Positions 2,436 through 34,870 of a DNA stretch of 44,652 bases are shown here, piece after piece (the first letter of the stretch is position 1; every line of letters begins with the position of its first letter). Source of the stretch: Terriglobales bacterium. Its GTDB lineage: Bacteria > Acidobacteriota > Terriglobia > Terriglobales > Acidobacteriaceae. Under the pieces are notes generated by a model. That model was not told where the DNA came from. It searched no databases and saw only the letters and a list, made by a program, of their open reading frames with translations. The translations under genes and the position numbers were made by a program. The stretch is taken from NCBI GenBank assembly GCA_035457425.1, contig DATIBR010000076.1:1-44652 (forward strand), in the 5' to 3' direction.

Positions 2436-3002
2436 GTGAAGAAGCTCGTCTATCTCGGGCTGGGCTCGAACCTGGGCGACCGCCGCGGGAACCTGGAGGC
2501 GGCCATCGCGCAGCTCGCGCAGCTGGGCGCCGTCCAAGCGCGATCCTCGCTCTACGAGACCGAGCCGGTGGGGATGGCCGGGGTCCCCGGCGGGCAGGCG
2601 TGGTTCCTGAACTGCGCGCTCGCGCTCGAGACCGAGCTGATGCCCAAGCAGCTGATGGCGCGGCTGCTGGAGATCGAGCGGGGCCTGGGGCGAAAGCGCG
2701 CGCCGGCGGCGGAGGCCGGCAAGAAGCAGCCGCGCACCATCGACCTCGACATCCTGTTGTTCGGTAACTCGGTGATCGAGACGCCGGCGCTGGTGGTGCC
2801 GCATCCGGCGATGCACGAGCGGCGGTTCGTGCTCGAGCCGCTGGCGGAGATTGCTCCGGAGGCGCGGCATCCGGTGTTCAAGCGCAGCATGCGCGAGCTG
2901 CGGGACGCGCTGCCGAAGGAAGCGGGCGCGGTCAAGCGAGTGGACAGTGGAGAGTGGACGGTGGAGAGCAAGGAGCGCGCGGCAAAGCCGCCGTCGGAGT
3001 GA
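2436..3002 (+). CDS. folK: 2-amino-4-hydroxy-6-hydroxymethyldihydropteridine pyrophosphokinase (HPPK)
   Basis: HPPK transfers pyrophosphate from ATP to 6-hydroxymethyl-7,8-dihydropterin in folate synthesis, in the cytoplasm. The 188-residue product has the family signature: GLGSNLGDR (8-16), SLYETEPVG (38-46), the acidic metal site in RTIDLDILLFG (100-110), and VPHPAMHERRFVLEPL (121-136). The start is GTG at 2436, 5 bases after the PilZ gene; GAGG at 2430-2434 may serve as ribosome site. The conserved enzyme ends near residue 160. Residues about 169-179 are translated from a run of 7-bp repeats (2939-2968), so the tail is repeat-derived and probably dispensable. Confidence 0.95.
   Translation: MKKLVYLGLGSNLGDRRGNLEAAIAQLAQLGAVQARSSLYETEPVGMAGVPGGQAWFLNCALALETELMPKQLMARLLEIERGLGRKRAPAAEAGKKQPRTIDLDILLFGNSVIETPALVVPHPAMHERRFVLEPLAEIAPEARHPVFKRSMRELRDALPKEAGAVKRVDSGEWTVESKERAAKPPSE
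2939..2968 (+). repeat. heptamer tandem repeat (AGTGGAC type) inside the folK 3' end
   Basis: Four consecutive 7-bp units, AGTGGAC, AGTGGAG, AGTGGAC and GGTGGAG, read through by folK. The same word family recurs at 30624-30651 inside mnmG and, as inverted arms, at 35666-35763. No inverted arm was found for this copy. Confidence 0.75.
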
Positions 3003-6950: not shown

Positions 6951-7382
6951 CAAGTGGTCCGTGCCGCCGGCTTTCTGCTCGTTTTGGCGGGACGGGTGGG
7001 AAGGCGAGCGCGCCTGGCGGATTCCCTCTTGATTGAACCTTGGCCGTCAATGTTGGCGGGCTGGGTTCCGTGGTGGAACCAGGAGAGTTAACATCAGCGA
7101 TGGAAAGTGGAGCGATGACCGCAAAATGGTGCTCCCTCGGATGGCTAAGCAGTCTGAATCGGCACGCGCGACGCAGCAAAGTGGGATAAACTGGCAGAAT
7201 GGGGCCGGCACCGACAACGCGGCGGAGTCCGGGGAGATCGGCGAGCATCGGAACCAGCCGAGTAATAGTGGTATAAAGACGGCCAAAAGCGGAGAAAACC
7301 GGAAGATACCGGTCAATCACGGGCGCTGGGCGATTGTTTCAGGCATAAAAATCGCCCGAGAACCAGAACAGTTAACAGGGGA
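6951..7382. other. rsmG-parA intergenic region, non-coding
   Basis: This part of the 584-base gap has lower G+C than its surroundings and no convincing gene. It holds GGTTCC-gtggt-GGAACC (7074-7090), which resembles a parS palindrome with one extra central base. It also has a stem with arms GGGCGATT (7328-7335) and AATCGCCC (7350-7357) around a 14-base loop, which could end transcripts from rsmG. I looked for DnaA boxes (TTATCCACA type) and saw none, so I cannot call an origin here despite the origin-like neighbours. Confidence 0.5.
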
Positions 7383-7398
7383 TGTTCCACGTGGAACA
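7383..7398. other. parS centromere site 1
   Basis: TGTTCCACGTGGAACA is a perfect 16-bp palindrome of the chromosomal parS type (family consensus tGTTtCACGTGaAACa). It lies 137 bases upstream of parA and is the expected loading site for ParB encoded just downstream. Confidence 0.93.
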
Positions 7399-7423
7399 TC
7401 GTCCGTGGCGCCAGCGAGTTGCG

Positions 7424-7439
7424 CGTTCCACGTGGAACA
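7424..7439. other. parS centromere site 2
   Basis: CGTTCCACGTGGAACA carries the same 14-bp core palindrome as site 1, with only the first outer base changed. The two centres are 41 bp apart, close to four helical turns, so two ParB dimers would sit on the same face of the DNA. Confidence 0.9.
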
Positions 7440-7534
7440 CTTTTCCTCATTTTCCAGATAAAGCCGAGAAATCCTCTGTTGCGCGCTTTCACGAGCTGCT
7501 GCATTCTGGCGTTGCTCTGAGTTCTCCCGACAGC

Positions 7535-8380
7535 ATGGCGCGCGTCATAGCGGTTGCCAATCAGAAGGGCGGCGTGGGCAAGACCACGACGGCCATCAAC
7601 CTGGCGGCCTCCTTTGCGGCCGCCGAGGTCGCGACCCTGCTGGTCGACTGCGACCCGCAATCCAACGCCTCCAGCGGCCTGGGCTTTGCCCGCGACCCCA
7701 ACCGGCTCTCGACCTACGACCTGCTGATGGCCACAGCCGAGGCGCCGGAAGCGGTGCTGCCGACGGCGGTCGAGGGGCTGGCGACCATCCCGGCGCACAA
7801 GAACCTGATCGGCGCGAACCTGGAGCTGGTGAGCGCGGAGCGCCGCGAATATCGCCTGCGCGACGCGCTTCGACCGCTGCGCGACCGCTACCAGTTCATC
7901 GTGCTGGACTGCCCGCCGGCGCTCGACCTGCTGACGCTGAACGCGCTGGTGGCGGCGGATTCCGTGCTCATCCCGATGCAGGCGGAGTACTTCGCGCTGG
8001 AAGGCGTGAGCGAGCTGCTGGACACTATCGAGCGCATCCGGCAGAGCTTCAACCCGGACCTGGTGATCGAGGGCGTCGTGCTGACGATGTACGACGACCG
8101 CACCATCCTGGCGCAGCAGGTGACGCGCGACCTGAAGAGATTCTTCGGCGACCAGCTGTGCCGCACCAGCATCCCGCGCAACGTGCGGCTGGCGGAGGCG
8201 CCGAGCTTCGGGAAGCCGGCGCTCGATTACGACCCGCAATCGCGCGGGGCCGAGGCCTACATCAAGCTGGCGAAAGAGCTGATCACGCGGGCGGAGAAGC
8301 GGCAAGCCGCCGGCGCGCAGGTGCAGGAGAAGGTCGCGGCTGCCGCCGCGCCCTCGACTTCCGAAGTGGAGAGCCTATGA
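7535..8380 (+). CDS. parA: chromosome-partitioning ATPase ParA (Soj)
   Basis: ParA is a Walker-type ATPase that binds DNA when ATP-bound and moves ParB-parS complexes during chromosome segregation. The 281-residue protein has the deviant Walker A KGGVGKTT (11-18), the A' motif LVDCDPQ, Walker B FIVLDCPPALDLL, and PMQAEYFALEG typical of small chromosomal ParA/Soj proteins without an N-terminal HTH. The ATG at 7535 gives the family N-terminus MARVIAVANQKGG; the open frame extends further upstream through the parS sites but without homology. parB starts inside its stop codon (ATGA overlap), so the pair is translationally coupled. Confidence 0.96.
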   Translation: MARVIAVANQKGGVGKTTTAINLAASFAAAEVATLLVDCDPQSNASSGLGFARDPNRLSTYDLLMATAEAPEAVLPTAVEGLATIPAHKNLIGANLELVSAERREYRLRDALRPLRDRYQFIVLDCPPALDLLTLNALVAADSVLIPMQAEYFALEGVSELLDTIERIRQSFNPDLVIEGVVLTMYDDRTILAQQVTRDLKRFFGDQLCRTSIPRNVRLAEAPSFGKPALDYDPQSRGAEAYIKLAKELITRAEKRQAAGAQVQEKVAAAAAPSTSEVESL

Positions 8381-15282: not shown

Positions 15283-15297
15283 GCCGCGCCGCCGCGC

Positions 15298-15303
15298 TAT
15301 AAT
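15298..15303 (+). promoter_or_regulatory. -10 box (TATAAT) of kinase 2
   Basis: A perfect TATAAT in CGCTATAATCGCGAACC ends 12 bases before the ATG at 15316 and 15 bases after the kinase 1 stop. Transcription would begin about 5 nt before the start codon. Kinase 2 therefore probably has its own promoter even though the gene gap is only 33 bases. Confidence 0.65.
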
Positions 15304-15315
15304 CGCGAACCTTCC

Positions 15316-17922
15316 ATGGCGCTCGCACCGGGGAGCAAGCTAGGGCCGTACGAGATCGTCGCGCCGCTGGGCGCGGGCGGCATGGGCGAGGTGTACCGCG
15401 CCAAGGACACGCGGCTCAACCGCGAAGTCGCGGTCAAGATCCTCTCCACGACCGGCGGTTTCAGCTCCGACCTGAAGCAGCGCTTCGAGCGCGAAGCGAA
15501 AGCCATCTCGGCGCTCAATCATCCGCACATCTGCACGCTGCACGACATCGGGAACCACGAAGGCACGGACTTCCTGGTGATGGAGCTGCTCGAAGGGCAG
15601 ACGCTGGCCGACCGGCTGGAGCGGGGGCCGCTGCCGCTGGAGCAGTCGCTCACCATCGGCGAGCAGATCGCCGACGCGCTGGAGCGCGCGCACCGCAAGG
15701 GCATCGTGCATCGCGACCTCAAGCCCGGCAACATCGTGCTGACGAAGAGCGGCGCGAAGCTGCTGGATTTCGGGCTGGCGAAGCCGGTGGCGCACCACAT
15801 GGCGGCGACGATGGAGGCCACGCGCAGCCAGCCGATCACCGCGGAAGGCGCCATCGTCGGGACTTACCAGTACATGGCGCCGGAGCAGATCGAGGGCAAG
15901 GAAGCGGACGCGCGCACCGACATCTTCGCGCTGGGCGCGGTGCTGTACGAGATGGCGACGGGCAAGAAGGCGTTCGAGGGGAAATCGCAGATCTCGGTGG
16001 CGAGCGCGATCCTGGAGAGGGATCCGCCGCCGATCTCGGCAGTGCAAGCGGTCTCGCCGCCGGAGCTGGACCGCGTGGTGGCGACGTGCCTGGCGAAGGA
16101 CCCGGAGCGGCGCTGGCAAAGCGCGCAAGACGTGAAGCTGGAACTCGGCTTCGTGCGCGCCGCGGGCAGCGCGCCGAGCAGCGTCCCCGGCGGGCGACGC
16201 ATGTGGCCGTGGGCGGCTGTGGGCGCCGCGCTACTGCTCTCGGTGGTGGCGGGGACATGGTGGCTGGCGCGGGGGCGCACGCCGGAGGCGGCAGGTGCGC
16301 TCTACCGCGCGTCGCTGCTGCCACCGCGCGACCACTCGTTCGTGGCTTACGATTTCTTGATCTCGCCCGACGGCAGCAAGCTGGCCTTCACCGCTACCAG
16401 CGCCGACGGGGTCACCACGTTATGGCTGAAGGACTTGAGTTCGGATTCGAACCAGGAGTTCGCGGGGACTGAGGGCGCGAGTTTTCCCTTCTGGTCGCCG
16501 GACAGCCGCTACATCGCGTTCTTCGCGGGCGGGCGGCTGCTCAAAGTGGACACGCGCACGGGCGCGACCCAGCCGCTGGCGTCGGCGATCGCGGCGCGCG
16601 GCGGCGCGTGGGGGCCGGACGGCACGATCCTGTACGTCGATATGTCGGCCACGGGTCTGGCGCGCGTCTCGGCGAACGGGGGCGCGGTCAGCGCGGCCAC
16701 CGTTCTTCCGGCCGGCGCGGGCGAGAGCCACCGCTGGCCGACGTTCCTGCCGGACGGGAAGCACTTCCTGTTCATGATCGACTGGTCGGCGCGCGACGGG
16801 CTGTACATGGCCTCGCTCGACGATCCCACGCCGGTGCTGGTGGCGCGCGGCATTTGGGGGAACACCGCATTCGCCGACGGCAAGGTCTTCTACGTGCGCG
16901 ACGGGACGCTGTACGCGCAGACCTTCGACCTGGCGAAGCACAGGCTGAGCGGGGAGCCCGAGCCGCTGGTGAACCAGGAACTGGAGCAGGACAGCGGCTT
17001 CAGCCGCTCGGGCTTCAGCATCGCGAACAACCGCACGCTGGTCTATCAGTCGAGGCGTTCTTACAGCTCGCGGCTGGTGTGGTTCGACCGCAGCGGCCAG
17101 GAGCTGGAGGCGGTGGGGCCGCCGGGCCCGTACCATCCCACCCTGTCGCCGGACGGGCGGCAGGTCGCACTCACGCGCGACAGCGGCAGTGACGGCCACA
17201 TGCGCGTGCATACGCTGGACCTGGCGCGCGGGACGGTGACGCTGATCGCGGGAGACAGCCAGCGCAACGAAGCGCCGGTCTGGTCCCCTGACGGCAAGCG
17301 CATCGCGTACGCGACCTACGGCGAAGGATCGCAGCTCATCGTGCGCGCGGCTGACGGCACGGGCAGCCCGAAGGTGATCATGGAAAGCCAGCGCATGATG
17401 ACGAACTCGTGGTCCCGGGACGGGCGATACCTGGTTTTCATGAACATGGTCCGTGGCTTCCCGGAGCTGTGGGCGTTCGACCTCGCGGAGAACAAGGCGA
17501 TCGACCTCCAGGTGCAGGGCGCCGAGGGGCAGATCTCGCCCAACGGCAGGTGGCTGGCGTACACCCTTGGAAGAGGAACCTCGCCGCAAACCTACATCCG
17601 CCCTTTCCCTGGCAACGGCGGCCGGCTCCAAGTCTCGCCCGGTGGCGGCACGCAATCGCGTTGGAGTCCTGACGGGAGCGAGCTTTTCTACGTGAACGAG
17701 GACAAGCGGCTGATGGCGGTCTCCGTGCGGGAGAAAGGCGGGACGCTGGAGCTCTCGACGCCGCGGCCGCTGTTCCGCACGCGCATGCGGGCATCGCGCT
17801 TCGCGCTGTTCCAGTACGACGTCTCGCCCGACGGCAAGCGCTTCCTCATCAACTCCATCCCGCGCGAAGACGCTGCGGCGCCGCTGACGCTCGTGACTGA
17901 CTGGACGCAGCTCGGCAAGTGA
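15316..17922 (+). CDS. receptor-like Ser/Thr protein kinase with TolB-type beta-propeller (kinase 2)
   Basis: An 868-residue paralogue with the same plan as kinase 1. Kinase domain: GAGGMG (19-24), VAVK with Lys41, HRDLKPGN (132-139), DFG (151-153), then APEQ in place of SPEQ. The activation segment differs from kinase 1 (MEATRSQPITAEGAIVG). A membrane helix lies at about 297-318. The propeller region has repeats such as ISPDGSKLAFTA, WSPDSRYIAFFA, LSPDGRQVALTR and WSPDGKRIAYAT. The kinase core is well kept while the propeller has diverged, so the paralogues probably sense different inputs. There is no Shine-Dalgarno before the ATG. Confidence 0.95.
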   Translation: MALAPGSKLGPYEIVAPLGAGGMGEVYRAKDTRLNREVAVKILSTTGGFSSDLKQRFEREAKAISALNHPHICTLHDIGNHEGTDFLVMELLEGQTLADRLERGPLPLEQSLTIGEQIADALERAHRKGIVHRDLKPGNIVLTKSGAKLLDFGLAKPVAHHMAATMEATRSQPITAEGAIVGTYQYMAPEQIEGKEADARTDIFALGAVLYEMATGKKAFEGKSQISVASAILERDPPPISAVQAVSPPELDRVVATCLAKDPERRWQSAQDVKLELGFVRAAGSAPSSVPGGRRMWPWAAVGAALLLSVVAGTWWLARGRTPEAAGALYRASLLPPRDHSFVAYDFLISPDGSKLAFTATSADGVTTLWLKDLSSDSNQEFAGTEGASFPFWSPDSRYIAFFAGGRLLKVDTRTGATQPLASAIAARGGAWGPDGTILYVDMSATGLARVSANGGAVSAATVLPAGAGESHRWPTFLPDGKHFLFMIDWSARDGLYMASLDDPTPVLVARGIWGNTAFADGKVFYVRDGTLYAQTFDLAKHRLSGEPEPLVNQELEQDSGFSRSGFSIANNRTLVYQSRRSYSSRLVWFDRSGQELEAVGPPGPYHPTLSPDGRQVALTRDSGSDGHMRVHTLDLARGTVTLIAGDSQRNEAPVWSPDGKRIAYATYGEGSQLIVRAADGTGSPKVIMESQRMMTNSWSRDGRYLVFMNMVRGFPELWAFDLAENKAIDLQVQGAEGQISPNGRWLAYTLGRGTSPQTYIRPFPGNGGRLQVSPGGGTQSRWSPDGSELFYVNEDKRLMAVSVREKGGTLELSTPRPLFRTRMRASRFALFQYDVSPDGKRFLINSIPREDAAAPLTLVTDWTQLGK

Positions 17923-17973
17923 GCGTGGGCCGCTGGAAGGCGGGAAAAAACCGGGCAGGCCGGCATTCCCGCG

Positions 17974-17979
17974 TATAAT
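17974..17979 (+). promoter_or_regulatory. -10 box (TATAAT) of kinase 3
   Basis: TATAAT in GCGTATAATCGCGCGACTCC, 21 bases before the ATG at 18001. The similarity to the kinase 1 box continues into the first codons (ATGGCCCTCAC), which suggests that promoter and gene were duplicated together. Confidence 0.65.
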
Positions 17980-18000
17980 CGCGCGACTCCCGGAAACCTG

Positions 18001-20589
18001 ATGGCCCTCACTCCCGGCAGCAAGCTCGGGCCCTACGAGATCGTCGGCGCCATCGGCGCCGGCGGCATGGGCGAGGTGTATCGCGCGCGCGACACGCGCC
18101 TGGAGCGCGACGTCGCGATCAAGGTCCTGCCGGCAGGTTTCGCGCAGGATACGGAGCGGCTGCGACGCTTCGAGCAGGAAGCGCGCGTGGTTGCCACGCT
18201 CAACCATCCCGACATCCTGGCGATCTTCGACATCGGCCAAGACGGCGCCACGCCGTATCTCGTCACGGAGCTGCTGGAAGGCGAGCCGCTGCGCGAGCGG
18301 ATGAAGGCAGGCGCGCTGCCGGCGCGACGCGCGCTGGAGTACGCCACCGGCATCGCGCACGGGCTGGCAGCGGCGCACGAGAAGGGCATCGTGCACCGGG
18401 ACCTGAAGCCGGAGAACGTGTTCCTGACGCGCGACGGCCGGGTGAAGGTGCTGGACTTCGGGTTGGCGAAGCTCACGCGCGGAGAGGCGGCGGCGGGCAC
18501 GAGCGACAGCCGCACCATCGACCATGCGACCTCGCCCGGCATGCTGCTGGGGACCGTGGAATATATGTCGCCGGAGCAGGTGCGCGGCCAGGCCGCCGAC
18601 CACCGCTCGGACATCTTCGCGCTCGGCTCGATGCTGTACGAGATGCTGGCAGGACGCCGCGCCTTCCACCGCGAGACGGGCGCGGAGACGATGACGGCGA
18701 TCCTGAAGGAGGACCCGGCGGAGTTCAGCGACGCGGCGCACCCGGTGCCGCCGGGGCTGGAGCGCATCGTGCGGCGCTGCCTGGAGAAGGCGCCGGAGCA
18801 GCGCTTCCAGTCGGCGCGCGACCTGGCGTTCGCGCTGGAAGCGGTCTCGGGACTCTCGCACGGCTCGAGCGCCTCGGGCATCGCGCCGGCCATGGCAGCG
18901 CCGAGGGCGCGCCACTGGCGCACGCCCGCGCTGGTCGCGGGGCTGCTGCTGCTGGCCGCAGCGGCCTACGTCGCCGGGCGGGGAAGCGCGCCGCGAGCGA
19001 GCGAGATCAGCTACAAGCAGGTGAGCTACCGCGCGCAGACCATCTTCCAGGCGCGTTTCTCGCCCGACGGCAAGACGATCGTTTTCAGCGCGGCCAGTGA
19101 GGGCACGAATCCGACGCTCTACACCATCCAGTCGGAGTATCCCGAGGCGCGATCGACGGGGCTGACCGGGGTGCAACTGCTTTCAATCTCTCCGCAAGGG
19201 GAGCTGGCGGTGCTGACGCATGCGCAGTTCCTGGGCCATCGGCTGTTCCGGGGAACACTGGCGCGCATGCCGCTGGGCAGCAGCGCGCCGCGCGAGATCC
19301 TGGAAGAGGTGCAGGAGGCGGACTGGACGCCCGACGGCAGCGAGCTTGCCATCATCCGCGAGGTGAATGGCCAGAGCCGTCTGGAATATCCGGTGGGGAA
19401 AGTCCTATATGAGACGGCGGGTTACGTGAGCGACCTCCGTTTCTCGCCGGACGGAAAGCACATCGGCTTCTTCGATCACCCGGCAAAGTATGACGACCGC
19501 GGCATCGTGGCGGTGGTGGACCTGGCGGGAAAGAAGACCGAGCTGGCGGGGGGATTCTGGGGCATGGAAGGGCTCGCGTGGTCCCGCGACGGCGACGAGA
19601 TATTCTTCTCGGCGAGCGCGGCGGGCGCGAATTACCTGCCACAAGGAGTGACGCTGGCCGGCAAGGGGCGGCTGGTGCTGCCTGCTGCCGGGAGTGTTGT
19701 GGTCTTTGACGTGGCGGCCGATGGACGCTGGCTGGTGGCGCGCGAGGATTCGGCCAACGGGGTAGCGGCCAAGGATCCGGCGTCCGGCAAGGAGCGCGAT
19801 CTCTCCTGGCTGGATCTCTCCGCGTTCCCGCGGATCTCGGAAGACGGCAAGGTGGTCGTCTTCACCGAGTACAGTTCGGCGACGGGCGCGAACTACGCGG
19901 TTTGCCTGCGCAAGACAGATGGCTCGCCGGCGGTGGTGCTGGGAGAGGGGTCCAGTGCGGGCGCGTCGCCGGATGGCAGGTGGGTGATGGCCCTGGTGCC
20001 GACGACGCCGCCGAAGCTGGTGCTCTATCCCACCGGCGCGGGCGAGGCGCGGGTGATGCCACGGGGCAGCCTGGAGAATTACGACTATTTCGGGGGCGGC
20101 TGGTTCCCCGACAGCCGGCGGCTGCTGGTCTGCGGGAACGAGCCCGGCCGCGCTAGCCGCTGCTACGCCCAGGAGGTGAGCGGAGGTGCGCTCCATCCCC
20201 TGACTCCAGAGGGCACGGGGAGCGGGTGGGTGTCGCCGGACGGAAGGTTGCTGCTCGGCCGTACCGGCGCCGGCGCCTTCCTGCTCTATCCGCTGGGAAG
20301 CGCAGGCGAGCCGAGGGCGCTGCCTCACCTGACGCGCGACGACCTGGTGATCCGCTGGAGCGGCGACGGGCGCTCGCTGCTGGTATATCGCGCTAACGTC
20401 CTGCCGGTGCGCGTGGAGAAGGTGGACGTGGCCAGCGGCCGTCGCACGCTGCTGCGGGAGCTTGCCCCGGCAGATCGCTCGGGTGTCACCGGCATCACGG
20501 GAGTCTCGTTCTCCAGCGACGAGCGGTGGTACGCCTACAGCTACTCGCGCGATGCCGCACAGCTGTTCAGCGTGGGGGGCGTGAAGTAG
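18001..20589 (+). CDS. receptor-like Ser/Thr protein kinase with TolB-type beta-propeller (kinase 3)
   Basis: An 862-residue paralogue, the most diverged of the four. Kinase domain: GAGGMG (19-24), VAIK with Lys41, HRDLKPEN (132-139, the common eukaryote-like form rather than PGN), DFG at 152-154, SPEQVRGQ. The activation segment has its own Thr/Ser set (GTSDSRTIDHATSPG). A membrane helix lies at about 309-328. The C-terminal propeller contains RFSPDGKTIVFS, RFSPDGKHIGFF and WSRDGDEIFFS repeats. The gene ends 9 bases before the convergent serine hydrolase gene, so transcripts of the two may overlap at their 3' ends. Confidence 0.95.
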   Translation: MALTPGSKLGPYEIVGAIGAGGMGEVYRARDTRLERDVAIKVLPAGFAQDTERLRRFEQEARVVATLNHPDILAIFDIGQDGATPYLVTELLEGEPLRERMKAGALPARRALEYATGIAHGLAAAHEKGIVHRDLKPENVFLTRDGRVKVLDFGLAKLTRGEAAAGTSDSRTIDHATSPGMLLGTVEYMSPEQVRGQAADHRSDIFALGSMLYEMLAGRRAFHRETGAETMTAILKEDPAEFSDAAHPVPPGLERIVRRCLEKAPEQRFQSARDLAFALEAVSGLSHGSSASGIAPAMAAPRARHWRTPALVAGLLLLAAAAYVAGRGSAPRASEISYKQVSYRAQTIFQARFSPDGKTIVFSAASEGTNPTLYTIQSEYPEARSTGLTGVQLLSISPQGELAVLTHAQFLGHRLFRGTLARMPLGSSAPREILEEVQEADWTPDGSELAIIREVNGQSRLEYPVGKVLYETAGYVSDLRFSPDGKHIGFFDHPAKYDDRGIVAVVDLAGKKTELAGGFWGMEGLAWSRDGDEIFFSASAAGANYLPQGVTLAGKGRLVLPAAGSVVVFDVAADGRWLVAREDSANGVAAKDPASGKERDLSWLDLSAFPRISEDGKVVVFTEYSSATGANYAVCLRKTDGSPAVVLGEGSSAGASPDGRWVMALVPTTPPKLVLYPTGAGEARVMPRGSLENYDYFGGGWFPDSRRLLVCGNEPGRASRCYAQEVSGGALHPLTPEGTGSGWVSPDGRLLLGRTGAGAFLLYPLGSAGEPRALPHLTRDDLVIRWSGDGRSLLVYRANVLPVRVEKVDVASGRRTLLRELAPADRSGVTGITGVSFSSDERWYAYSYSRDAAQLFSVGGVK

Positions 20590-20598
20590 CCGCGTCCC

Positions 20599-22551
20599 TC
20601 AGTAGCGCAAGCTCCAGTCCAGCATCCGCATGGTGAAGGTGAACCAGACGAAGGCGAGCGCGGCCAGCGCGATCGCGGTGTACCAGACGCGTGCCCACCA
20701 CCACAGCCCCGGGCGGAACCAGGCGCGCGCCATCGCCGCGAGCGGCACGAGCGTCAGGAGCACCGCCAGCCACTGCGCGAGCTGCAGCAGGTGCAGCCAC
20801 TTGTCGTTCTGCGAAGCGAGCATGCCGATGTCGTCGCCCGCCATCGAGAGCCAGACGATCCAGGTGAGCAGCACGGCGAGCTGGAGCGCGCAGACCAGGT
20901 AGACGGCGAGGCGGCCGCGGCCGGCGGCGGTTTCCGGCAGCGGGCGGCCGTAGTGGCGGCGCACCAGCGCGCCCACCGGCCACAGGATGAGCGTGAGCGC
21001 GAAGATGGTGATGGAGCCGACCAGCGCGCCCAGCACCACGTGGCTGGAGAGATACCAGGGTGCGCGCTCGAAGACGACGATGTTGGCGTTGGCGGACATG
21101 CGCATCGTGCCGTCGGGCATGCGGGTGAAGCCGAGCTTCTCCTGGCCGTTGACGTCCTGGAAGAGCATGGGTCCGACCTGCTTCCACTGGCGGGGCGTGC
21201 CGTTGGCGGACTTCAGGCCGTCGGCGACGATGGTTCCGTCCTTGCCGGGATGAAAGCGGAGCTGCTCGAGGTACGCGGCCATGCGCAGGATGCAGCCGTC
21301 GCAGCGGCGGCTGGTGGCGTACGAGCCGAGCACAGCCTTGTCGTCGCCGCTCGCCTTCAGGTCGGGCGGCCGGTACGGAAAATAGCGATCGAGGAAGGCG
21401 CGCCAGAGCGGGCCGCGCGGCGAGATCTCGCCCTTGCCGGCGCTGTTGTAGGAGACGAAGAAGCCGAGGCGCTGCGCGGGGATGAGGTGGAGGTCGCTGT
21501 GGAACCACAGCGTGTCGCCGCCGTGGCCGAGGATGCGCTGTCCGTTGCGGCTCTCCTCGTAGAAGCCGAGCGCCATGCCATTGAGCGCGGGGTTGGACCA
21601 GGTCCTGGCCTGGCGCTCGTGCATCTGCGCCAGGGTCGCGGGCTGGAGGAGTTGCGCGGAGCCCCAGCGGCCGCCCTCCAGGTGCGCGAGCATGAAGCGC
21701 GTGACGTCGTCGGCGGAGACGGCCATGCTGCCGGCCGGCGGCACGTTCACCCACTCGTATTCCTTGGCGTCGTCCGAGGCCTTGCGATAGCCGCTCGACA
21801 TCAGCGGCGCGAGCTCCTTCGGCAACGGCTGGCGGAAGGTGGAATGCTTCATGCTTAGCGGCCCGAGGATGTGCTGCTCGACGTAATCGTCGAAGGGCTG
21901 GCCGGAGGCGCGCTGCACGATGTAGCCGGCCAGCGCCGCGCCGTAGTTGGAGTAGGACGGCGTGGTGCCGGGCGCGAAGCGGCGGCGCGGCAGGTGCTGC
22001 TTCATGTAGTCGCCGAGCGGCTGCATGCGCTCGGGCTGGGCGACGAACAGGTCCTTGTCGGTCTCCTCGAAGCCGGGCGTGTGCGTGAGCAGGTGGCGGA
22101 GGGTGATGGGCTGCGGATGGGTCGCGGGGATCTTGAAGTCGAGGTAGTCGTTGACGTCGCGGTCGAGATCGAGCTTGCCGGCTTCGACCAGTTGCATGAC
22201 CGCGGTCCAGGTGAAGAGTTTCGAGACCGAGCCGGGGCGGAAGAGGGTATCGGTCGGAGAGACCGGCTTGCGCGTCTTCACGTCGGCGTAGCCGTAGCCC
22301 TTCTCGAAGATGACTTGGCCGTCCTTGACGACGGCGACGACGGCGCCGGCGATGTTCTCGCGCTCGAGCTGCATCGGCACCGCGGCGTCGAAGAAGCCGG
22401 CAAGGTCTTCGGCGGTGAGCGGATGCGCCGCGGCGGGCGGCTGCGGGGCGGGCGCGACGGCCTTTTGCGGCTTGGTCTCTTTCGGGACCTGCGCGAACGC
22501 GCCCAGAGAAAGGATGAGCAGGAAGAGTGCGCACAGCTTGCGGGGCTTCAT
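20599..22551 (-). CDS. class C beta-lactamase-like serine hydrolase with C-terminal membrane domain
   Basis: A 650-residue exported protein. Signal peptide about 1-21. Residues about 45-370 are a serine beta-lactamase/DD-peptidase-fold hydrolase with the full active-site set: SVSK (Ser108, Lys111), YSN (200-202) and a later GHGGDT in place of KTG. This fold covers D-aminopeptidases, esterases and penicillin-binding relatives, so the substrate cannot be read from sequence. The last 140 residues have four or five membrane helices (such as GALVGSITIFALTLILWPVG). The start MKPRKLC at 22551 was chosen for its signal peptide and for the TATAAT box 9 bases upstream. It is the only leftward gene inside the kinase array. 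Confidence 0.9.
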   Translation of the reverse strand: MKPRKLCALFLLILSLGAFAQVPKETKPQKAVAPAPQPPAAAHPLTAEDLAGFFDAAVPMQLERENIAGAVVAVVKDGQVIFEKGYGYADVKTRKPVSPTDTLFRPGSVSKLFTWTAVMQLVEAGKLDLDRDVNDYLDFKIPATHPQPITLRHLLTHTPGFEETDKDLFVAQPERMQPLGDYMKQHLPRRRFAPGTTPSYSNYGAALAGYIVQRASGQPFDDYVEQHILGPLSMKHSTFRQPLPKELAPLMSSGYRKASDDAKEYEWVNVPPAGSMAVSADDVTRFMLAHLEGGRWGSAQLLQPATLAQMHERQARTWSNPALNGMALGFYEESRNGQRILGHGGDTLWFHSDLHLIPAQRLGFFVSYNSAGKGEISPRGPLWRAFLDRYFPYRPPDLKASGDDKAVLGSYATSRRCDGCILRMAAYLEQLRFHPGKDGTIVADGLKSANGTPRQWKQVGPMLFQDVNGQEKLGFTRMPDGTMRMSANANIVVFERAPWYLSSHVVLGALVGSITIFALTLILWPVGALVRRHYGRPLPETAAGRGRLAVYLVCALQLAVLLTWIVWLSMAGDDIGMLASQNDKWLHLLQLAQWLAVLLTLVPLAAMARAWFRPGLWWWARVWYTAIALAALAFVWFTFTMRMLDWSLRY

Positions 22552-22560
22552 GGCGGGCGC

Positions 22561-22566
22561 ATTATA
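22561..22566 (-). promoter_or_regulatory. -10 box (TATAAT) of the serine hydrolase gene
   Basis: TATAATGCGCCCGCCATG: a perfect box 9 bases before the ATG, with no Shine-Dalgarno. It shares a 99-base divergent region with kinase 4. Confidence 0.6.
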
Positions 22567-22633
22567 CGAGCGGGGCGCAAGTGCCGCTGTGACGCCGGCC
22601 ACGACGCGCGGCCTCGCGCCCGGATTTACACGC

Positions 22634-22639
22634 TATAAT
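22634..22639 (+). promoter_or_regulatory. -10 box (TATAAT) of kinase 4
   Basis: TATAAT in CGCTATAATCGCCAACC ends 11 bases before the ATG at 22651, the same arrangement as kinase 2. The predicted leader is about 4 nt, so translation would be effectively leaderless. Confidence 0.65.
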
Positions 22640-22650
22640 CGCCAACCCTT

Positions 22651-25260
22651 ATGGCGTTGGCCTCCGGAAGCAGGCTCGGCCCCTACGAGATCGTCGCGGC
22701 CATCGGCGCGGGCGGGATGGGTGAGGTCTACCGCGCGCGCGATACGCGTCTGCAGCGCGAGGTCGCGATCAAGGTGCTGCCGGGCGAACTCTCCGCGAAT
22801 CCCGAGCTGCGCGCCCGGTTCGAACGCGAGGCGCGCGCCATCTCCGCGCTCAACCACCCGCACATCTGCGCGCTCTACGACGTCGGGCACCAGGACGGCA
22901 TCGACTACCTGGTGATGGAGCTGCTGGAGGGCGAATCGCTCGCCGAGCGGCTGCAGCGCGGCCGGATGCCGGTGCAGCAGATCCTGCTTTACGGGCAGCA
23001 GATCGCCGAGGCGCTGGAGAAAGCGCACCGCAGCGGGATCGTGCACCGCGACCTGAAACCCGGCAACGTGGTGCTGACGAAAGCGGGCGCGAAGCTGCTG
23101 GATTTCGGCCTGGCGAAGCCGTCGCAGTCGGCGGTGGCCGCCAGCACGGGCTTTTCCGGCGCCCTCACCAAGACCACGCCCATCTCGCCCATCACGCAGC
23201 AAGGCACGGTCGTCGGGACGTTCCAGTACATGTCGCCGGAGCAGATCGAGGGCGGCGAGCCGGACGCGCGCAGCGACATCTTCTCGCTCGGCGCGGTGCT
23301 CTACGAGATGGCCACCGGCAAGCGGGCGTTCGAGGGCAAGAGCACGCTGTCGGTGGCGAGCGCGATCCTGGAAAAAGAGCCCCCGCCGATCTCGACGGTC
23401 GAGCCGCTGACTCCGCCGGCGCTCGAGCAAGTAGTGCGCGGATGCCTGGCGAAGGATCCGGAAGACCGCATCCAGACGGCGCACGACGTGAAGCTGCAGC
23501 TCAAGTGGATCGCGGATGGGCGGACCTCGCAGGTGGCGGCGGCGCCGCTGTTGCGCTCGCGGCGCAACCGCGAGCGGCTGGCGTGGGGCGCGCTCACGCT
23601 GCTGCTGCTGGCCGCGCTCGCGCTCTCGTGGTTCCTGCGGCCGGCGCCGGCGGCAGCGCCGGTGAAGTTCGAGCTCGCGCCCTCGGCGGCCATCTTCGGC
23701 GCGACCATCTCGCCCAGCGGCCGGCAGGTCGCGTTCATCGGGGTCCAGAACAATTCCGCGATCGTCTTCGTGCGCGCGCTGGACAGCCTGGAAACCCGGG
23801 CGCTGCCCGGCACCGAGCACGCGAGCACCCTGTTCTGGTCGCCCGACGAGCAGCAGCTCGGGTTCATGAGCCAGGGCAAGATGCGCCGCATCGACCTGGC
23901 GAGCGGCGCGGTGCAGGTGCTCGGCGACAATGCCGGCGTCGGGGCGGCGTGGAGTCGGGAAGGCGTGATCGTCTTCGCTCCGCGCTACGGCGCGGGGCTC
24001 TCGCGCATGTCGGCGGCGGGTGGCGACGTGCGACCGCTCACCGAACTGGGAAAGGGCGAGACGGTGCACGCCTGGCCGAAGTTCCTGCCCGACGGCAAGC
24101 ACTTCGTTTTCCTGAACCGCAGCAGCCTGACGCAGGCGAACCACATCTGCGTCGGGGCCCTCGACAGCAAAGAGTTCAAGGTGCTGACCGAGGGCGAAGG
24201 GGTGGTCGGCTACGCGGATCCGGGCTACGTGATCTACGTGCGCGACGGCGCGCTGATGGGGATTGCAGTGAGCCCGCGCAGCTACCAGGCGACCGGCCAG
24301 CCGTTCCTCGTCACCGACAAGGTGGCGTTCAACGGGGACGACGGCTTCGTCTACGCATCCATCTCGCGCACCGGGACGCTGGTCTACCAGAGCGGCACCA
24401 CGACGCGGCAGCGCGAATTGGTGCTGGTGGACCGCGGCGGCAAGGTGGTGAGCACGCTCGCGCCCGCCGGACCCTACGAGGAACTCAGACTCTCGCATGA
24501 CGGGACGCAGGTGGCGGTCACGCGCATCGACCCTGCCGTGGGCTCGAACGATATTTGGGTGTGGAGCATTCCACGGCGCATCTTCTCGCGGGTGACGAGC
24601 TCACGCGCCAACGAGATGAGCCCGACGTGGTCGCTCGACGACCGCGAGCTCTTCTACAGCAGCGACCCGAAGGGGATGTACGACCTGTATCGCCACGCCG
24701 CGAACAACACCGAGGTGAGCCTGGCAGAGACGCTCCACGACAAGATCGCGAGCGACATCAGCCCCGACGGGAGATACCTGATCTACAGCGACGTAGATCA
24801 GGAGACCCACTCGGACATATGGGCGCTGCCGCTCGGGGGCGGCGGCCAGGCAACGGTGGTGGTGCGCACGCGCGCGCACGAGGGAGATGGCCGCATCTCG
24901 CCCGATGGCCGCTGGCTGGCCTTCATGGCGGCGGACACGCGCGGCTCCGAGATCTACGTGACCAGCTTCCCCTCCGGCGAGGGGCGCTGGCAGATCTCGG
25001 ACGCCGGGGGTGAAAAGCCGCGCTGGAGCCGTGACGGCCGCCAGCTGTTCTACGTCTCCGCCCAGGGGAAGGTGATGGCCGTGAACATCACGCCCGGCGC
25101 GCGCTTCGATGCGGGCGTGCCGCAGCCGCTGTTCGACGCGATCCATGGCGATTACTCCGTGCTGAAGAACGGACAGTTCATCTTCAGCAAGCCGACCAAC
25201 GAGGGCCGCACCGCGCCCATCACCGTCATCCTGAACTGGCCGTCCACCGTGAAGCGCTGA
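22651..25260 (+). CDS. receptor-like Ser/Thr protein kinase with TolB-type beta-propeller (kinase 4)
   Basis: An 869-residue paralogue. Kinase domain: GAGGMG (19-24), VAIK with Lys41, HRDLKPGN (132-139), DFGLAK, SPEQIEG. The activation segment TKTTPISPITQQGTVVG is identical to that of kinase 1, and the QLKWIA segment closing the domain is shared too. A membrane helix lies at about 311-329. The propeller (ISPSGRQVAFIG, WSPDEQQLGFMS, ISPDGRYLIYSD, ISPDGRWLAFMA) is well diverged from kinase 1. It is separated from kinases 1-3 by the serine hydrolase and ends 3 bases before the convergent LolA-like gene. Confidence 0.95.
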   Translation: MALASGSRLGPYEIVAAIGAGGMGEVYRARDTRLQREVAIKVLPGELSANPELRARFEREARAISALNHPHICALYDVGHQDGIDYLVMELLEGESLAERLQRGRMPVQQILLYGQQIAEALEKAHRSGIVHRDLKPGNVVLTKAGAKLLDFGLAKPSQSAVAASTGFSGALTKTTPISPITQQGTVVGTFQYMSPEQIEGGEPDARSDIFSLGAVLYEMATGKRAFEGKSTLSVASAILEKEPPPISTVEPLTPPALEQVVRGCLAKDPEDRIQTAHDVKLQLKWIADGRTSQVAAAPLLRSRRNRERLAWGALTLLLLAALALSWFLRPAPAAAPVKFELAPSAAIFGATISPSGRQVAFIGVQNNSAIVFVRALDSLETRALPGTEHASTLFWSPDEQQLGFMSQGKMRRIDLASGAVQVLGDNAGVGAAWSREGVIVFAPRYGAGLSRMSAAGGDVRPLTELGKGETVHAWPKFLPDGKHFVFLNRSSLTQANHICVGALDSKEFKVLTEGEGVVGYADPGYVIYVRDGALMGIAVSPRSYQATGQPFLVTDKVAFNGDDGFVYASISRTGTLVYQSGTTTRQRELVLVDRGGKVVSTLAPAGPYEELRLSHDGTQVAVTRIDPAVGSNDIWVWSIPRRIFSRVTSSRANEMSPTWSLDDRELFYSSDPKGMYDLYRHAANNTEVSLAETLHDKIASDISPDGRYLIYSDVDQETHSDIWALPLGGGGQATVVVRTRAHEGDGRISPDGRWLAFMAADTRGSEIYVTSFPSGEGRWQISDAGGEKPRWSRDGRQLFYVSAQGKVMAVNITPGARFDAGVPQPLFDAIHGDYSVLKNGQFIFSKPTNEGRTAPITVILNWPSTVKR

Positions 25261-30179: not shown

Positions 30180-30201
<22 letters not shown>
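30106..30201. repeat. composite inverted element, AGCGATT heptamer word, between convergent genes
   Basis: The left arm (30106-30137) is AGCGATT, AGCAACT, AGCGATT, AGCGATT, AGCG. The right arm (30165-30201) read in reverse is AGCGATT, AGCAGTT, AGCGATC, AGCGATT. Between them is a perfect palindrome, GCGCCGGCGA-G-TCGCCGGCGC (30137-30157). The MFS stop TAG lies in the left arm and the mnmG stop TAG in the right arm, so the element could end transcription from both sides. Confidence 0.85.
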
Positions 30202-32117
<1,916 letters not shown>

Positions 32118-32139
32118 CCCCGCGAATGCCTGCAGGTTG

Positions 32140-32145
32140 ATTTTA
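32140..32145 (-). promoter_or_regulatory. probable -10 box of mnmG
   Basis: TAAAAT in the extended context CTGATAAAATC, 22 bases before the mnmG ATG at 32117. No clear -35. Confidence 0.35.
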
Positions 32146-32199
32146 TCAGCGGAAATCGCGGGTCTTGGCCGCTCCCTGTGATGTTTCCCACCTGGTCAT

Positions 32200-32215
32200 T
32201 GTGACCGCGCTCACT
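32200..32215. promoter_or_regulatory. CRP/FNR-like operator upstream of the CADD-like gene
   Basis: TGTGACCGCGCTCACT matches the TGTGA-N6-TCACA consensus of CRP-family regulators with one outer mismatch. Its centre (32207.5) is about 42 bases upstream of the start point predicted from the TATATT box at 32238, the classical class II activator position. It lies in the divergent region shared with mnmG. Confidence 0.45.
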
Positions 32216-32237
32216 GGCGCGCCGAGGTCTGCTCCCG

Positions 32238-32243
32238 TATATT
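32238..32243 (+). promoter_or_regulatory. -10 box (TATATT) of the CADD-like gene
   Basis: TATATT, 37 bases before the ATG at 32281; no good -35, as expected for an activator-dependent promoter. The ribosome site AAAGGA is at 32268-32273. Confidence 0.45.
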
Positions 32244-32280
32244 TCAGGGGATCTCCTTTTTCCCTCGAAAGGACCCTGCC

Positions 32281-32967
32281 ATGGACGTCCAGCAATTCTT
32301 CTCCGAGCTCGACCGCCGCATCGCGAAGTACGACCTGCTCTGCCATCCTTTTTACCAGGCGTGGGCGGCGGGTGAGCTGACGCGCGCCGAGCTGCGCGAG
32401 TACGCCGGGCAGTACTACAACCAGGTGGCGAGCTTCCCGATCGCGCTCTCGACGCTGCACGCGCGCCTGCCGAACGGCGAGCTGCGCGAGGCGGTGCTGC
32501 ACAATTACTGGGACGAGGTGGGCATCGAAGCGCCCGACCGGCGTCCGCACGACGAGATCTGGCTGGACTTCGCCGAGGGCATGGACGGGACACGCGCGCC
32601 GCGGCCGCCCATCCTGGAGATGTGCGACCTGATGGCGCTGTTCCGCGACATCGCGCGCAACGGCGCGCCGGAAGAGGCGCTGGCCGCCTTCTACGCCTAC
32701 GAGTCGCAGGTGCCGCGGGTCGCGAAGGAGAAGGCCAAGGGGTTGCGCGAGCGCTACGGCGCCGACGCCAGGACCTGCAAGTACTTCGAGATCCACGAGA
32801 CCGCCGACGTGCACCACTCCGGCGTGTGGCGCGAGCAACTCGGCAAGCGCATCGCCGAAGGCGGCGACGCGAAGAAGGCGCTGGCCGCGGCCGAGACCAT
32901 TGCGCAGGCGCTGTGGCGCGCGCTCAGCGGCATCGAGCGCGAGCGGCAGACCAGGCGAGCCGCGTGA
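32281..32967 (+). CDS. CADD-family diiron protein, candidate self-sacrificing p-aminobenzoate synthase
   Basis: A 228-residue protein of the haem-oxygenase-like diiron fold, closest to chlamydial CADD. CADD supplies p-aminobenzoate for folate by consuming its own Tyr and Lys side chains. Counterparts of the CADD metal ligands are visible: Glu79 or Glu83, His90, Glu141 (YAYESQVP), and His172, Asp176 and His179 in HETADVHH. Tyr25 (CHPFYQAW) and Lys151 align in spacing with CADD Tyr27 and Lys152, the reported sacrificial residues. A PqqC/TenA-like role is the alternative. It has a good ribosome site. Folate context: folK is at 2436. Its TGA touches the repeat element that follows. Confidence 0.85.
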   Translation: MDVQQFFSELDRRIAKYDLLCHPFYQAWAAGELTRAELREYAGQYYNQVASFPIALSTLHARLPNGELREAVLHNYWDEVGIEAPDRRPHDEIWLDFAEGMDGTRAPRPPILEMCDLMALFRDIARNGAPEEALAAFYAYESQVPRVAKEKAKGLRERYGADARTCKYFEIHETADVHHSGVWREQLGKRIAEGGDAKKALAAAETIAQALWRALSGIERERQTRRAA

Positions 32968-33070
32968 ATTTGTAATTTGTGATCTGTAATTGGTAATTTG
33001 TGAGGCGGCCCGCCACGGTGGGCCGCTTCGTTGTTTCAAAATTACAAATCACAAATTACAAATCACAAAT
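32967..33070. repeat. composite inverted element, ATTTGTR heptamer word
   Basis: The left arm (32968-33003) is five heptamers (ATTTGTA, ATTTGTG, ATCTGTA, ATTGGTA, ATTTGTG). The right arm (33039-33070) is AAATTAC, AAATCAC, AAATTAC, AAATCAC, AAAT, the reverse complement pattern. The centre carries a GC hairpin, GCGGCCC (33005-33011) with GGGCCGC (33020-33026). The arm ends in the ATG of the next gene. Confidence 0.85.
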
Positions 33071-33464
33071 GAAAACGGTCCCCATCGGAGCGCGCGCGGA
33101 GGTCAGCGAGACGGTCGAGCGCAAGCACACGCTCGCGCATCATCACGGCGAGCTTCCGCCGGTGTATTCCACGCCCGACATGATCCGCCTGATGGAGACG
33201 GCGTGCTTCCACGCGCTGCTGCCGTACCACGAGCCGGGCGAGATCAACGTGGGGACGGCGATCCACGTGGAGCACCGCGCCGCGACCGGCATCGGGAGCC
33301 AGGTGCACGCGTCGGCGGAGCTGGAGCGCTTCGACGGCCGCTTCTACACCATGCGCTGCCGCGCGTGGGTCACGGAGAACGGCGCGCACCGCGAGATCGG
33401 CCGCGGGACGGTGGACCGCGCCGCGGTCCACGTGCCGACCTTCCTCGAGAAGACGAGAGTGTAG
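33069..33464 (+). CDS. FlK-like hotdog thioesterase
   Basis: A 131-residue hotdog-fold protein of the fluoroacetyl-CoA thioesterase (FlK)-like family. The start MKTVPIGARAEVSETV fits the family. The catalytic residues reported for FlK (Thr42, Glu50, His76) have counterparts with identical spacing: Thr35 in YSTPDMIRLME, Glu43 in the same segment, and His69 in HVEHRAAT. Most family members are general acyl-CoA thioesterases, so a fluoroacetate role is not implied. There is no Shine-Dalgarno: the ATG is the edge of the AAATCAC repeat arm. It lies between the CADD-like gene and mnmE on the same strand. Confidence 0.85.
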   Translation: MKTVPIGARAEVSETVERKHTLAHHHGELPPVYSTPDMIRLMETACFHALLPYHEPGEINVGTAIHVEHRAATGIGSQVHASAELERFDGRFYTMRCRAWVTENGAHREIGRGTVDRAAVHVPTFLEKTRV

Positions 33465-33508
33465 AAGTCTCCCGGGCCGCCCGGACCGCGCAACGCACCA
33501 CTCGCAAC

Positions 33509-33514
33509 TAGAAT
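33509..33514 (+). promoter_or_regulatory. -10 box (TAGAAT) of mnmE
   Basis: TAGAATGTCCCCGTG: the box ends 6 bases before the GTG start, so the start point would be the first base of the start codon (leaderless). Confidence 0.55.
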
Positions 33515-33520
33515 GTCCCC

Positions 33521-34870
33521 GTGCACCTGGACGACACCATCGTCGCCATCGCCACGGCCGCGGGACGCGGCGGGATCGGCGTGGTGCGGCTGTCGGGGCC
33601 GGAGGCGCGCGCCATCGCCGCGCCGCTGCTGCGGCTGAAGCACGAGCTGGCGGCGGGGCACGCGCGCCTGGGCGAGCTCGTGGAGCCGGAGACGGGCGAG
33701 AAGATCGACGAAGTCGTCGCCACGTACTTCGCGAAGCCGCACTCCTACACCACCGACGACGTGGTGGAGCTCTCGACGCACGGCTCGCCGGTGGTGCTGC
33801 GGCACGTGGTGGAGCTGTGCGGGGCGCGGGGCGCGCGGCTGGCCGAGCCGGGCGAGTTCACCATGCGCGCCTTCCTCAACGGGCGGCTCGACCTGACGCA
33901 GGCCGAGGCGGTGCGCGACCTCATCGAGGCCCAGACGCTGCACCAGGCCAAGGTCGCGGCGCAGCAACTGGAAGGCGCGCTCTCGCGCCGCCTGCAGCCC
34001 ATCAAGGAAGAGCTGGTGCAGCTCATCGCGCTGCTCGAGGCGGGCATCGATTTCGCCGAAGACGACGTCAGCACGCTCCCCGCCGAGAAGATCGTGGAGC
34101 ACATCGCGCGGGTGCGCGCGCCGCTCGAGCGACTGCGGGCGTCGTTCGCCTACGGCAAGGCGGTGCACGAGGGCATGACGCTGGCCATCGTGGGGCGGCC
34201 GAACGTGGGGAAGTCGTCGCTGTTCAACCGGCTGGTGGAGCGCGAGCGCGCCATCGTGACCGCCACGCCCGGGACGACGCGCGACCTGGTCTCGGAGACG
34301 GTCGCGCTCGGCGGCATCCCCGTGAAGCTGGTGGACACGGCCGGCATCCGCGAAGCCGCCGACGAAGCCGAGAGCCTGGGGGTGAAGAAAAGCTACGAGG
34401 CGCTGGCCGACGCGGACCTGGTGCTGGTGGTGCTCGACGCCTCGCAGCCGAAGGCCACCGAAGACGAGCGCCTGCTGGCGGCGGCGCGCGCGCGCAAGCA
34501 CGTGGTGGTCGCGAACAAGATCGACCTGGCGGGCGGCGCGCGCCCGGAGGCTATCGGTAACGGCGCGCTGCGGACCTCGGCGACGACGGGCGAGGGCCTG
34601 CCGCAGTTGCGCGACGAGATCCTGCGGCACGTCGGCATGGGCGCGGAGATGGAGACCGGCTTCCTGACCAACGTGCGCCACGAAGCGCTGGTGCGCGAAT
34701 CGCTCGCCGCGCTCGGGGCGGCGGCGGAATCCACGCGCGCCGGCGTCCCGCACGAGATGCTGCTGCTCGATCTCTACGGCGCCCTGCGCCCGCTCGACGC
34801 CATCACCGGCGCCACCACGGCCGACGACATCCTGCACCGCATCTTCAGCCAGTTCTGCATTGGAAAGTAG
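33521..34870 (+). CDS. mnmE: tRNA uridine-5-carboxymethylaminomethyl modification GTPase MnmE (TrmE)
   Basis: MnmE is the GTPase partner of MnmG in wobble-uridine modification. The 449-residue protein has the N-terminal tetrahydrofolate-binding domain (starting [20 protein letters not shown], with [16 protein letters not shown]), a helical domain, and the inserted GTPase domain: G1 GRPNVGKS (225-232), PGTTRD, G3 DTAG (272-275), G4 NKID. It ends in FCIGK, which carries the essential C-terminal Cys. The start is GTG at 33521 directly after a TAGAAT box. Its folate cofactor gives a loose link to folK and the CADD-like gene. Confidence 0.96.

Follow-up and report, generated by a model that had tools for sequence, protein, structure and literature searches.

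A predicted self-sacrificing p-aminobenzoate synthase of the CADD/PabS family in Terriglobales acidobacteria

Background

The closest described systems for the gene studied here are CADD (CT610) of Chlamydia trachomatis (Ct) and PabS (NE1434) of Nitrosomonas europaea (Ne). CT610 homologues were linked to folate genes in 2007 and failed to replace folE, according to the available part of PMC1971073, and PMC11965152 cites work in which ne1434 complemented an E. coli pabABC deletion. Both enzymes consume two residues of their own chain, Tyr27 and Lys152 in Ct CADD and Tyr25 and Lys159 in Ne PabS (available text of PMC11965152 and PMC13108848). The metal ligands of CADD-type enzymes are three histidines and three carboxylates, Ne Tyr41 is described as an essential second tyrosine with Tyr45 and Trp99 as helpers, and further putative PabS proteins are mentioned in Chloroflexi, Sphingomonas, Wolbachia and Rickettsia (available text of PMC11965152).

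This kind of enzyme is already known, also outside Chlamydia, and, being spent after one reaction, it is an expensive way to a vitamin precursor. The PabB/PabC route to p-aminobenzoate (pABA) is chorismate-based and multi-turnover.

The window is the whole stretch of DNA analysed here, 44,652 nucleotides from a Terriglobales metagenome-assembled genome (MAG; G000, 96.46% complete with 2.79% contamination). One of its genes had been proposed, from the DNA letters alone, to encode a self-sacrificing pABA synthase outside Chlamydia. The placement outside Chlamydia is supported by the present analysis, while the novelty that it implied is not, as PabS of N. europaea was characterised in 2025 (available text of PMC11965152). 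A literature search, mostly outside subscription journals and covering articles without their supplementary files, found no published report of CADD/PabS in acidobacteria. The description of the host as a free-living soil-type bacterium we infer from its relatives and not from the window; most of these relatives are MAGs under the label Acidobacteria or Terriglobia, and the one of the same genus bears a groundwater MAG name.

Data sets and thresholds

Residue correspondences were taken from a sequence alignment with the solved CADD structures, and an AlphaFold2 model of the 228-residue product was built from 33 sequences. For the family survey, 150 genomes of the window's bacterial family were searched with a profile. 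A match of at least 125 bits was called CADD-level, the line being drawn where the scores drop from 125 to 91. With two fragments at contig ends (G284 and G308) counted as CADD present and one genome at 90.6 bits (G329) as absent, 85 genomes had a CADD-level match.

A set of 80 named relatives was found by six search peptides, five of which cover residues that were counted, so that conservation counts from this set alone would be biased. The peptides cover Tyr25, Tyr41/45, His90/Trp94, Tyr140/Glu141 and Tyr168/His172, and none covers Lys151. The conservation counts relied on below are those from the profile matches.

Results

The gene product and its family

Coordinates of the gene and of the features around it are collected in Table 1. 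That the product is a CADD-like protein is indicated by the NCBIfam model of the CADD family (TIGR04305: E 1.5e-50, 171.7 bits, profile positions 1-211 of 212) and by the best sequence matches among solved structures, which are C. trachomatis CADD (1rcw and 8va9) and a 4-aminobenzoate synthase (9pj4), with E-values of 1e-26 to 1e-27. The score lies below the curated NCBI cut-off of 200 for TIGR04305, a shortfall seen in 47 of the 85 CADD-level genomes of the family, among them that of the window; 38 of the 150 lie above it. Among Pfam models, PF14518 matches with 106.5 bits and PF03070 (TENA_THI-4) with 50.4 bits. The equivalog models for PqqC (TIGR02111, 20.4 bits against a cut-off of 240) and for the BesC-type oxidase (NF042919, 19.5 bits against 500) did not reach their cut-offs on this product.

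When an offset of 21 is applied, the 9pj4 chain carries Tyr, Tyr, Tyr, Trp, Phe and Lys at 25, 41, 45, 99, 148 and 159, which equals the numbering in the available text of PMC11965152; one peptide printed there has Gln where the chain has Lys. Judged by its sequence, we equate 9pj4 with N. europaea PabS or with a close homologue of it.

Table 1. Features of the window discussed in the text.
Feature	Position	Strand	Remarks
CADD/PabS-family self-sacrificing p-aminobenzoate synthase (predicted)	32281..32967	+	ATG start, 228 aa
Tyr25 codon TAC, predicted sacrificial tyrosine (pABA ring)	32353..32355	+	Ct Tyr27, Ne Tyr25
Ten-residue loop, ligands Glu79 to His90	32518..32547	+	Four residues longer than in Ct CADD
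Lys151 codon AAG, predicted amine donor	32731..32733	+	Ct Lys152, Ne Lys159
folK (HPPK)	2436..3002	+	PF01288 131.8 bits; about 30 kb from the CADD gene
mnmG (gidA), divergent neighbour	30180..32117	-	PF01134 562.7 bits; 163 bp start-to-start with the CADD gene
FlK-like thioesterase, downstream	33069..33464	+	PF22636 91.4 bits; ATG chosen by eye, longest frame from 33000
mnmE, downstream of the thioesterase	33521..34870	+	PF12631 and PF10396

The predicted model has a mean pLDDT of 97.3 and a pTM of 0.92, and its heme-oxygenase-like fold is closest to Ct CADD. Foldseek placed chains of Ct CADD at ranks 1-4 (TM 0.85-0.86 by query), and VIA-align superposed Ct CADD on the model at 1.4-1.5 Å over 208-210 residues (Z 28.9-29.3, 33% identity). 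PqqC and HrmI follow at Z 25.9 and 2.4-2.5 Å, and the nine VIA-align rows after Ct CADD superpose at 2.0-2.5 Å.

Codon usage of the CADD gene (index 0.619, rank 9 among 18 genes compared) gave no sign of very high expression, as a one-shot enzyme might need. The index was 0.690 for mnmG, 0.597 for folP, 0.542 for trpE, and 0.796 and 0.771 for fusA and rpsL, both of which belong to the reference set. A promoter and terminator scan around the gene found none, where 0.1 and 0.8 were expected.

Sacrificial residues, metal ligands and loop

By alignment the product has a complete set of six ligands, three histidines and three carboxylates. Glu79, His90, Glu141, His172, Asp176 and His179 align with Ct Glu81, His88, Glu142, His174, Asp178 and His181, which we take to be the six metal ligands of C. 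trachomatis CADD. The original prediction had left the first ligand as Glu79 or Glu83 and had otherwise named the same residues. Glu83 is ruled out, position 79 being the invariant one (Glu in 79 of 79 covering rows, against 36 of 61 at position 83).

Tyr25 and Lys151 had been noticed by their spacing, and sequence and structure comparison together place both at the sacrificial sites. Tyr41, Tyr45, Trp94, Tyr140 and Tyr168 align with Ct Tyr43, Tyr47, Trp92, Tyr141 and Tyr170, the first three being also the counterparts of Ne Tyr41, Tyr45 and Trp99. The original prediction is right on the residues and probably on the function.

An insertion of four residues between the first Glu and His was likewise found to be real (10 residues, against 6 in Ct CADD). 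We rejected it as a sign of lost function, since relatives with loops of anywhere between 2 and 14 residues retain the ligands and the sacrificial pair. In the AlphaFold2 model the loop block (residues 81-90) has a pLDDT of 94.

Conservation and comparison with paralogues

Among the CADD-level family genomes Tyr25 is kept in all 84 that cover the site and Lys151 in 84 of 85; the counts are 83/85 for Tyr140, 84/84 for Tyr168 and 83/84 for Asp176. Four matches in other acidobacterial families (L084-L087) keep Tyr25, Lys151 and Tyr140 and have Phe at 168. On the scale of the phylum, and at a threshold of at least 170 bits, CADD was found in 17 of 247 genomes, namely 13 of 29 from the window's family and 4 of 218 others.

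Conservation among close relatives proves little, and the protein was therefore compared with paralogues. Seven same-phylum dimetal-oxidase paralogues (L101, L102, L104, L234, L235, L237 and L239) align at the ligands and keep them, with Glu instead of Asp176 in L239. All seven are aliphatic at both sacrificial sites, where position 25 is Ile or Leu and position 151 is Ile, Leu or Val. Four more of the 11 paralogue rows (L236, L238, L240 and L241) were unaligned at the ligands and were excluded from this count. In a quick tree, of which the details are unsure as L104 and 9pj4 are long rows, 64 rows including the window's protein and 9pj4 split from L101, L102 and L104 with an SH-aLRT of 98. 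The Tyr/Lys pair is present in 63 of these 64, the exception being L064 with Arg at 151.

Nine of the 80 named relatives depart from the key residues or fail to cover them. Six of these are truncated (L073, L075, L078, L079, L082 and L083), and three carry substitutions (Tyr140Phe in L053, Lys151Arg in L064, Asp176Gly in L067). Lys151Arg was also seen, together with Tyr140Gln, in one CADD-level family genome (G342, row L218), and in both of these Lys151Arg relatives a loss or change of function is possible. All key residues are present in a relative from a named strain, Paracidobacterium acidisoli 4G-K13 (L021), and a protein 72% identical to the window's CADD was found in the MAG Candidatus Korobacter versatilis NC_groundwater_580.

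Folate pathway of the genome

The original prediction had noted folK and no pabA, pabB or pabC in the window, and had proposed a search of the whole genome. The window's folK is confirmed, and in G000, window included, the search found no complete pabABC set. At 96.5% completeness of the assembly, neither pabB nor pabC was found and the PabB and PabC models stayed below their cut-offs. Nor did the search find a second chorismate-binding protein or class-IV aminotransferase in G000: the sole chorismate_bind protein, with TrpG following it, is TrpE (572 bits, cut-off 517.7), and the sole aminotran_4 protein is IlvE (417.6 bits, cut-off 279). TrpG could act as PabA; a PabB partner for it was not found in this genome. 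FolP is encoded outside the window (294.4 bits, cut-off 162.6). A pab gene may possibly have been missed in the remaining few percent of the MAG.

The other genome of the window's genus in the draw (G247) likewise has a CADD-level match, one chorismate_bind protein, one aminotran_4 protein and no PabB-PabC fusion. The same holds for G270, which has one match to each of the two models and lies outside the fusion genomes counted below.

CADD and the PabB-PabC fusion across the family

Relatives have a standard pABA route in the form of a PabB-PabC fusion, about 620-660 residues long, with the same predicted product as the window's CADD and not found in the window's genome. Two of six such fusions were scanned with NCBIfam and matched TIGR00553 with 377 and 364.9 bits (cut-off 328.4). 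Using an alignment of the six as query at a strict E-value of 1e-140, which an unfused or split PabB would escape, we found the fusion in 32 of the 150 family genomes. Seven genomes have a second chorismate_bind match and were yet not counted as having a fusion (G275, G284, G294, G320, G357, G363 and G374).

CADD and the fusion are found together in 4 genomes (G271, G316, G332 and G351), CADD only in 81, the fusion only in 28 and neither in 37. Fisher's test on these 150 genomes gives p 9.7e-9 for the anticorrelation and shuffling within genera gives a permutation p of 0.004, both without correction for the species tree. By a looser measure, at least two chorismate_bind matches, the counts are 7 of 85 with CADD versus 32 of 65 without (Fisher p 1.5e-8). 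Both patterns are also seen inside genera: genus g4 has CADD alone in two genomes and the fusion alone in five, and genus g8 has CADD alone in three and the fusion alone in one. CADD appears to stand in place of the standard pABA route in many related environmental bacteria. A host without pabB and pabC is usual for CADD, not defining, given the fusion in 4 of the 85 CADD-level genomes.

Dihydropteroate synthase (DHPS) scored over its cut-off in 35 of the 37 genomes with neither route (G288, G267, G334 and G360 are examples; G372 and G374 are the two without). Absence of pabB and pabC is therefore apparently survivable, and by itself is no proof of a replacement. These 37 genomes may reflect salvage of pABA or auxotrophy, an unrecognised route, or assembly gaps.

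Proposed function and alternatives

The gene product is very probably a p-aminobenzoate synthase of the CADD/PabS type, working for a single turnover, that would take the place of the PabB/PabC route. The reaction, the radical path and the single turnover are carried over by analogy from the two characterised homologues and would run as follows. The dimetal centre at Glu79, His90, Glu141, His172, Asp176 and His179 would activate O2, and the oxidising equivalent would pass to Tyr25 over redox-active residues, for which Tyr140, Tyr168, Trp94, Tyr45 and Tyr41 are candidates. The side chain of Tyr25 would be cut from the backbone, with a glycine left behind, and oxidised to the benzoate, while Lys151 would supply the amine. 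The pABA would then enter folate by way of FolP, instead of coming from the PabB/PabC route that is apparently missing from the genome.

A different heme-oxygenase-like dimetal oxidase such as BesC, UndA, FlcD or HrmI, acting on a small molecule and keeping Tyr25 and Lys151 by descent, would agree with the weak BesC profile match and with HrmI, FlcD and UndA coming next by structure at Z 23.4-25.9. We hold it to be very unlikely, as the CADD model scores 171.7 bits against about 20, Ct CADD superposes at 1.4-1.5 Å against 2.0-2.5 Å for the next nine rows, and neither sacrificial residue is present in the paralogues that share the ligands. That the protein resembles PqqC or TenA in function and belongs to some other cofactor pathway is scarcely credible: the better fit of PF14518 and the distance of the PqqC equivalog score from its cut-off outweigh the TENA_THI-4 match and the place of PqqC directly after CADD by structure.

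An intact CADD homologue might also not be the pABA source of its cell, if the cell relies on pABA salvage or if the few percent absent from the MAG include a pab gene. Such a situation would fit the 37 relatives that have neither route, of which 35 score above the DHPS cut-off, and the four genomes that have CADD together with the fusion. We regard it as unlikely, though less so than the two other enzyme assignments, since the anticorrelation holds within genera (p 0.004), both genomes of the window's genus in the draw are without the fusion, and Tyr25 and Lys151 are conserved near-strictly. If the CADD-type synthase is indeed the source, its presence in 85 of 150 genomes, with sacrificial residues nearly always kept and the fusion seldom alongside, would place self-sacrifice among the mainstream routes of environmental bacteria and not among the oddities of parasites.

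Predicted metal

Phe148 and Phe177 in Ne PabS go with an Fe/Fe centre, and with Tyr in place of both the enzyme comes to prefer Mn/Fe; it is argued in the same source that Mn/Fe suits an iron-short intracellular pathogen (available text of PMC11965152). The C. trachomatis enzyme is called the sole known Fe/Mn member in the available text of PMC13108848. With few exceptions, Tyr occupies the two metal-adjacent sites (140 and 168) in the enzymes of the window's family, and by the rule from Ne PabS Mn/Fe is therefore expected in this family. The centre would then resemble that of Ct CADD (Mn/Fe) and not that of Ne PabS (Fe/Fe), a fallible prediction that rests on two residues.

The combined proposal, that in Terriglobia-type acidobacteria a single-turnover enzyme has largely replaced the chorismate route and also runs on Mn/Fe like that of Chlamydia, is put forward tentatively, as a conjecture that may well fail. 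If true, it would add a second natural Mn/Fe enzyme to the heme-oxygenase-like superfamily, and its occurrence in non-intracellular bacteria would undercut host iron restriction as the selector of the Mn/Fe form. Tyr/Tyr here, Phe/Phe in N. europaea and Tyr/Phe in the four proteins L084-L087 form a natural series for what selects Mn/Fe versus Fe/Fe. The acidobacterial breadth, the displacement pattern with its exceptions, the paralogue residue control and the Mn/Fe prediction from Tyr/Tyr are what the present analysis adds.

Comparison with the known enzymes and gene neighbourhood

The protein is like Ct CADD in its predicted fold, its six ligands and its sacrificial Tyr and Lys, and also in the two tyrosines next to the metals (Ct 141 and 170; available text of PMC11965152). 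It differs from Ct CADD in the longer Glu79-His90 loop, in a gene that lies beside mnmG and outside a folate cluster, and in a host that is no chlamydia. With Ne PabS it shares the sacrificial pair, the essential second Tyr, an environmental host and a gene outside the folate biosynthesis cluster, and it differs from it in the Phe at both metal-adjacent sites and the Fe/Fe preference there (available text of PMC11965152). The chain of 9pj4 falls in the same clade as the window's protein.

In the DNA of the 80 named CADD loci, matches to mnmG were found in 50, to the thioesterase in 43 and to mnmE in 4, where presence in the locus DNA and not adjacency was counted and many flanks are incomplete. 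MnmEG uses methylenetetrahydrofolate, and mnmG and mnmE beside the CADD gene are a hint only of a link to folate use. The sole direct folate context seen for CADD relatives is that of L063, from a MAG labelled Melainabacteria, which adjoins folK (141.2 bits) and folP (285.5 bits). None of the four neighbours scanned in L021 shows a folate context.

Directly 3' of the CADD stop codon, at 32968-33063, lies an imperfect palindrome with two 47-base arms that are 77% complementary and separated by 2 bases; its core is rich in G+C and its arms are rich in A+T. Among 184 loci, a 20-base stretch from it has an exact match in only 2, both being the window's own place. Elsewhere in the window, at 12613-25260, the + strand encodes four proteins of 862-889 aa whose matches to Ser/Thr protein kinase models stay below the cut-offs; three of the four also match TolB-like propellers. 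Between the third and fourth genes, the other strand encodes a class-C beta-lactamase-like protein (101 bits against a cut-off of 415). The genes rsmG, ParA-like and mnmG/mnmE cluster near the replication origin in many bacteria. Here rsmG and a ParA-like gene (5862-8380) are about 22 kb apart from mnmG/mnmE (30180-34870), with the kinase-like genes between them.
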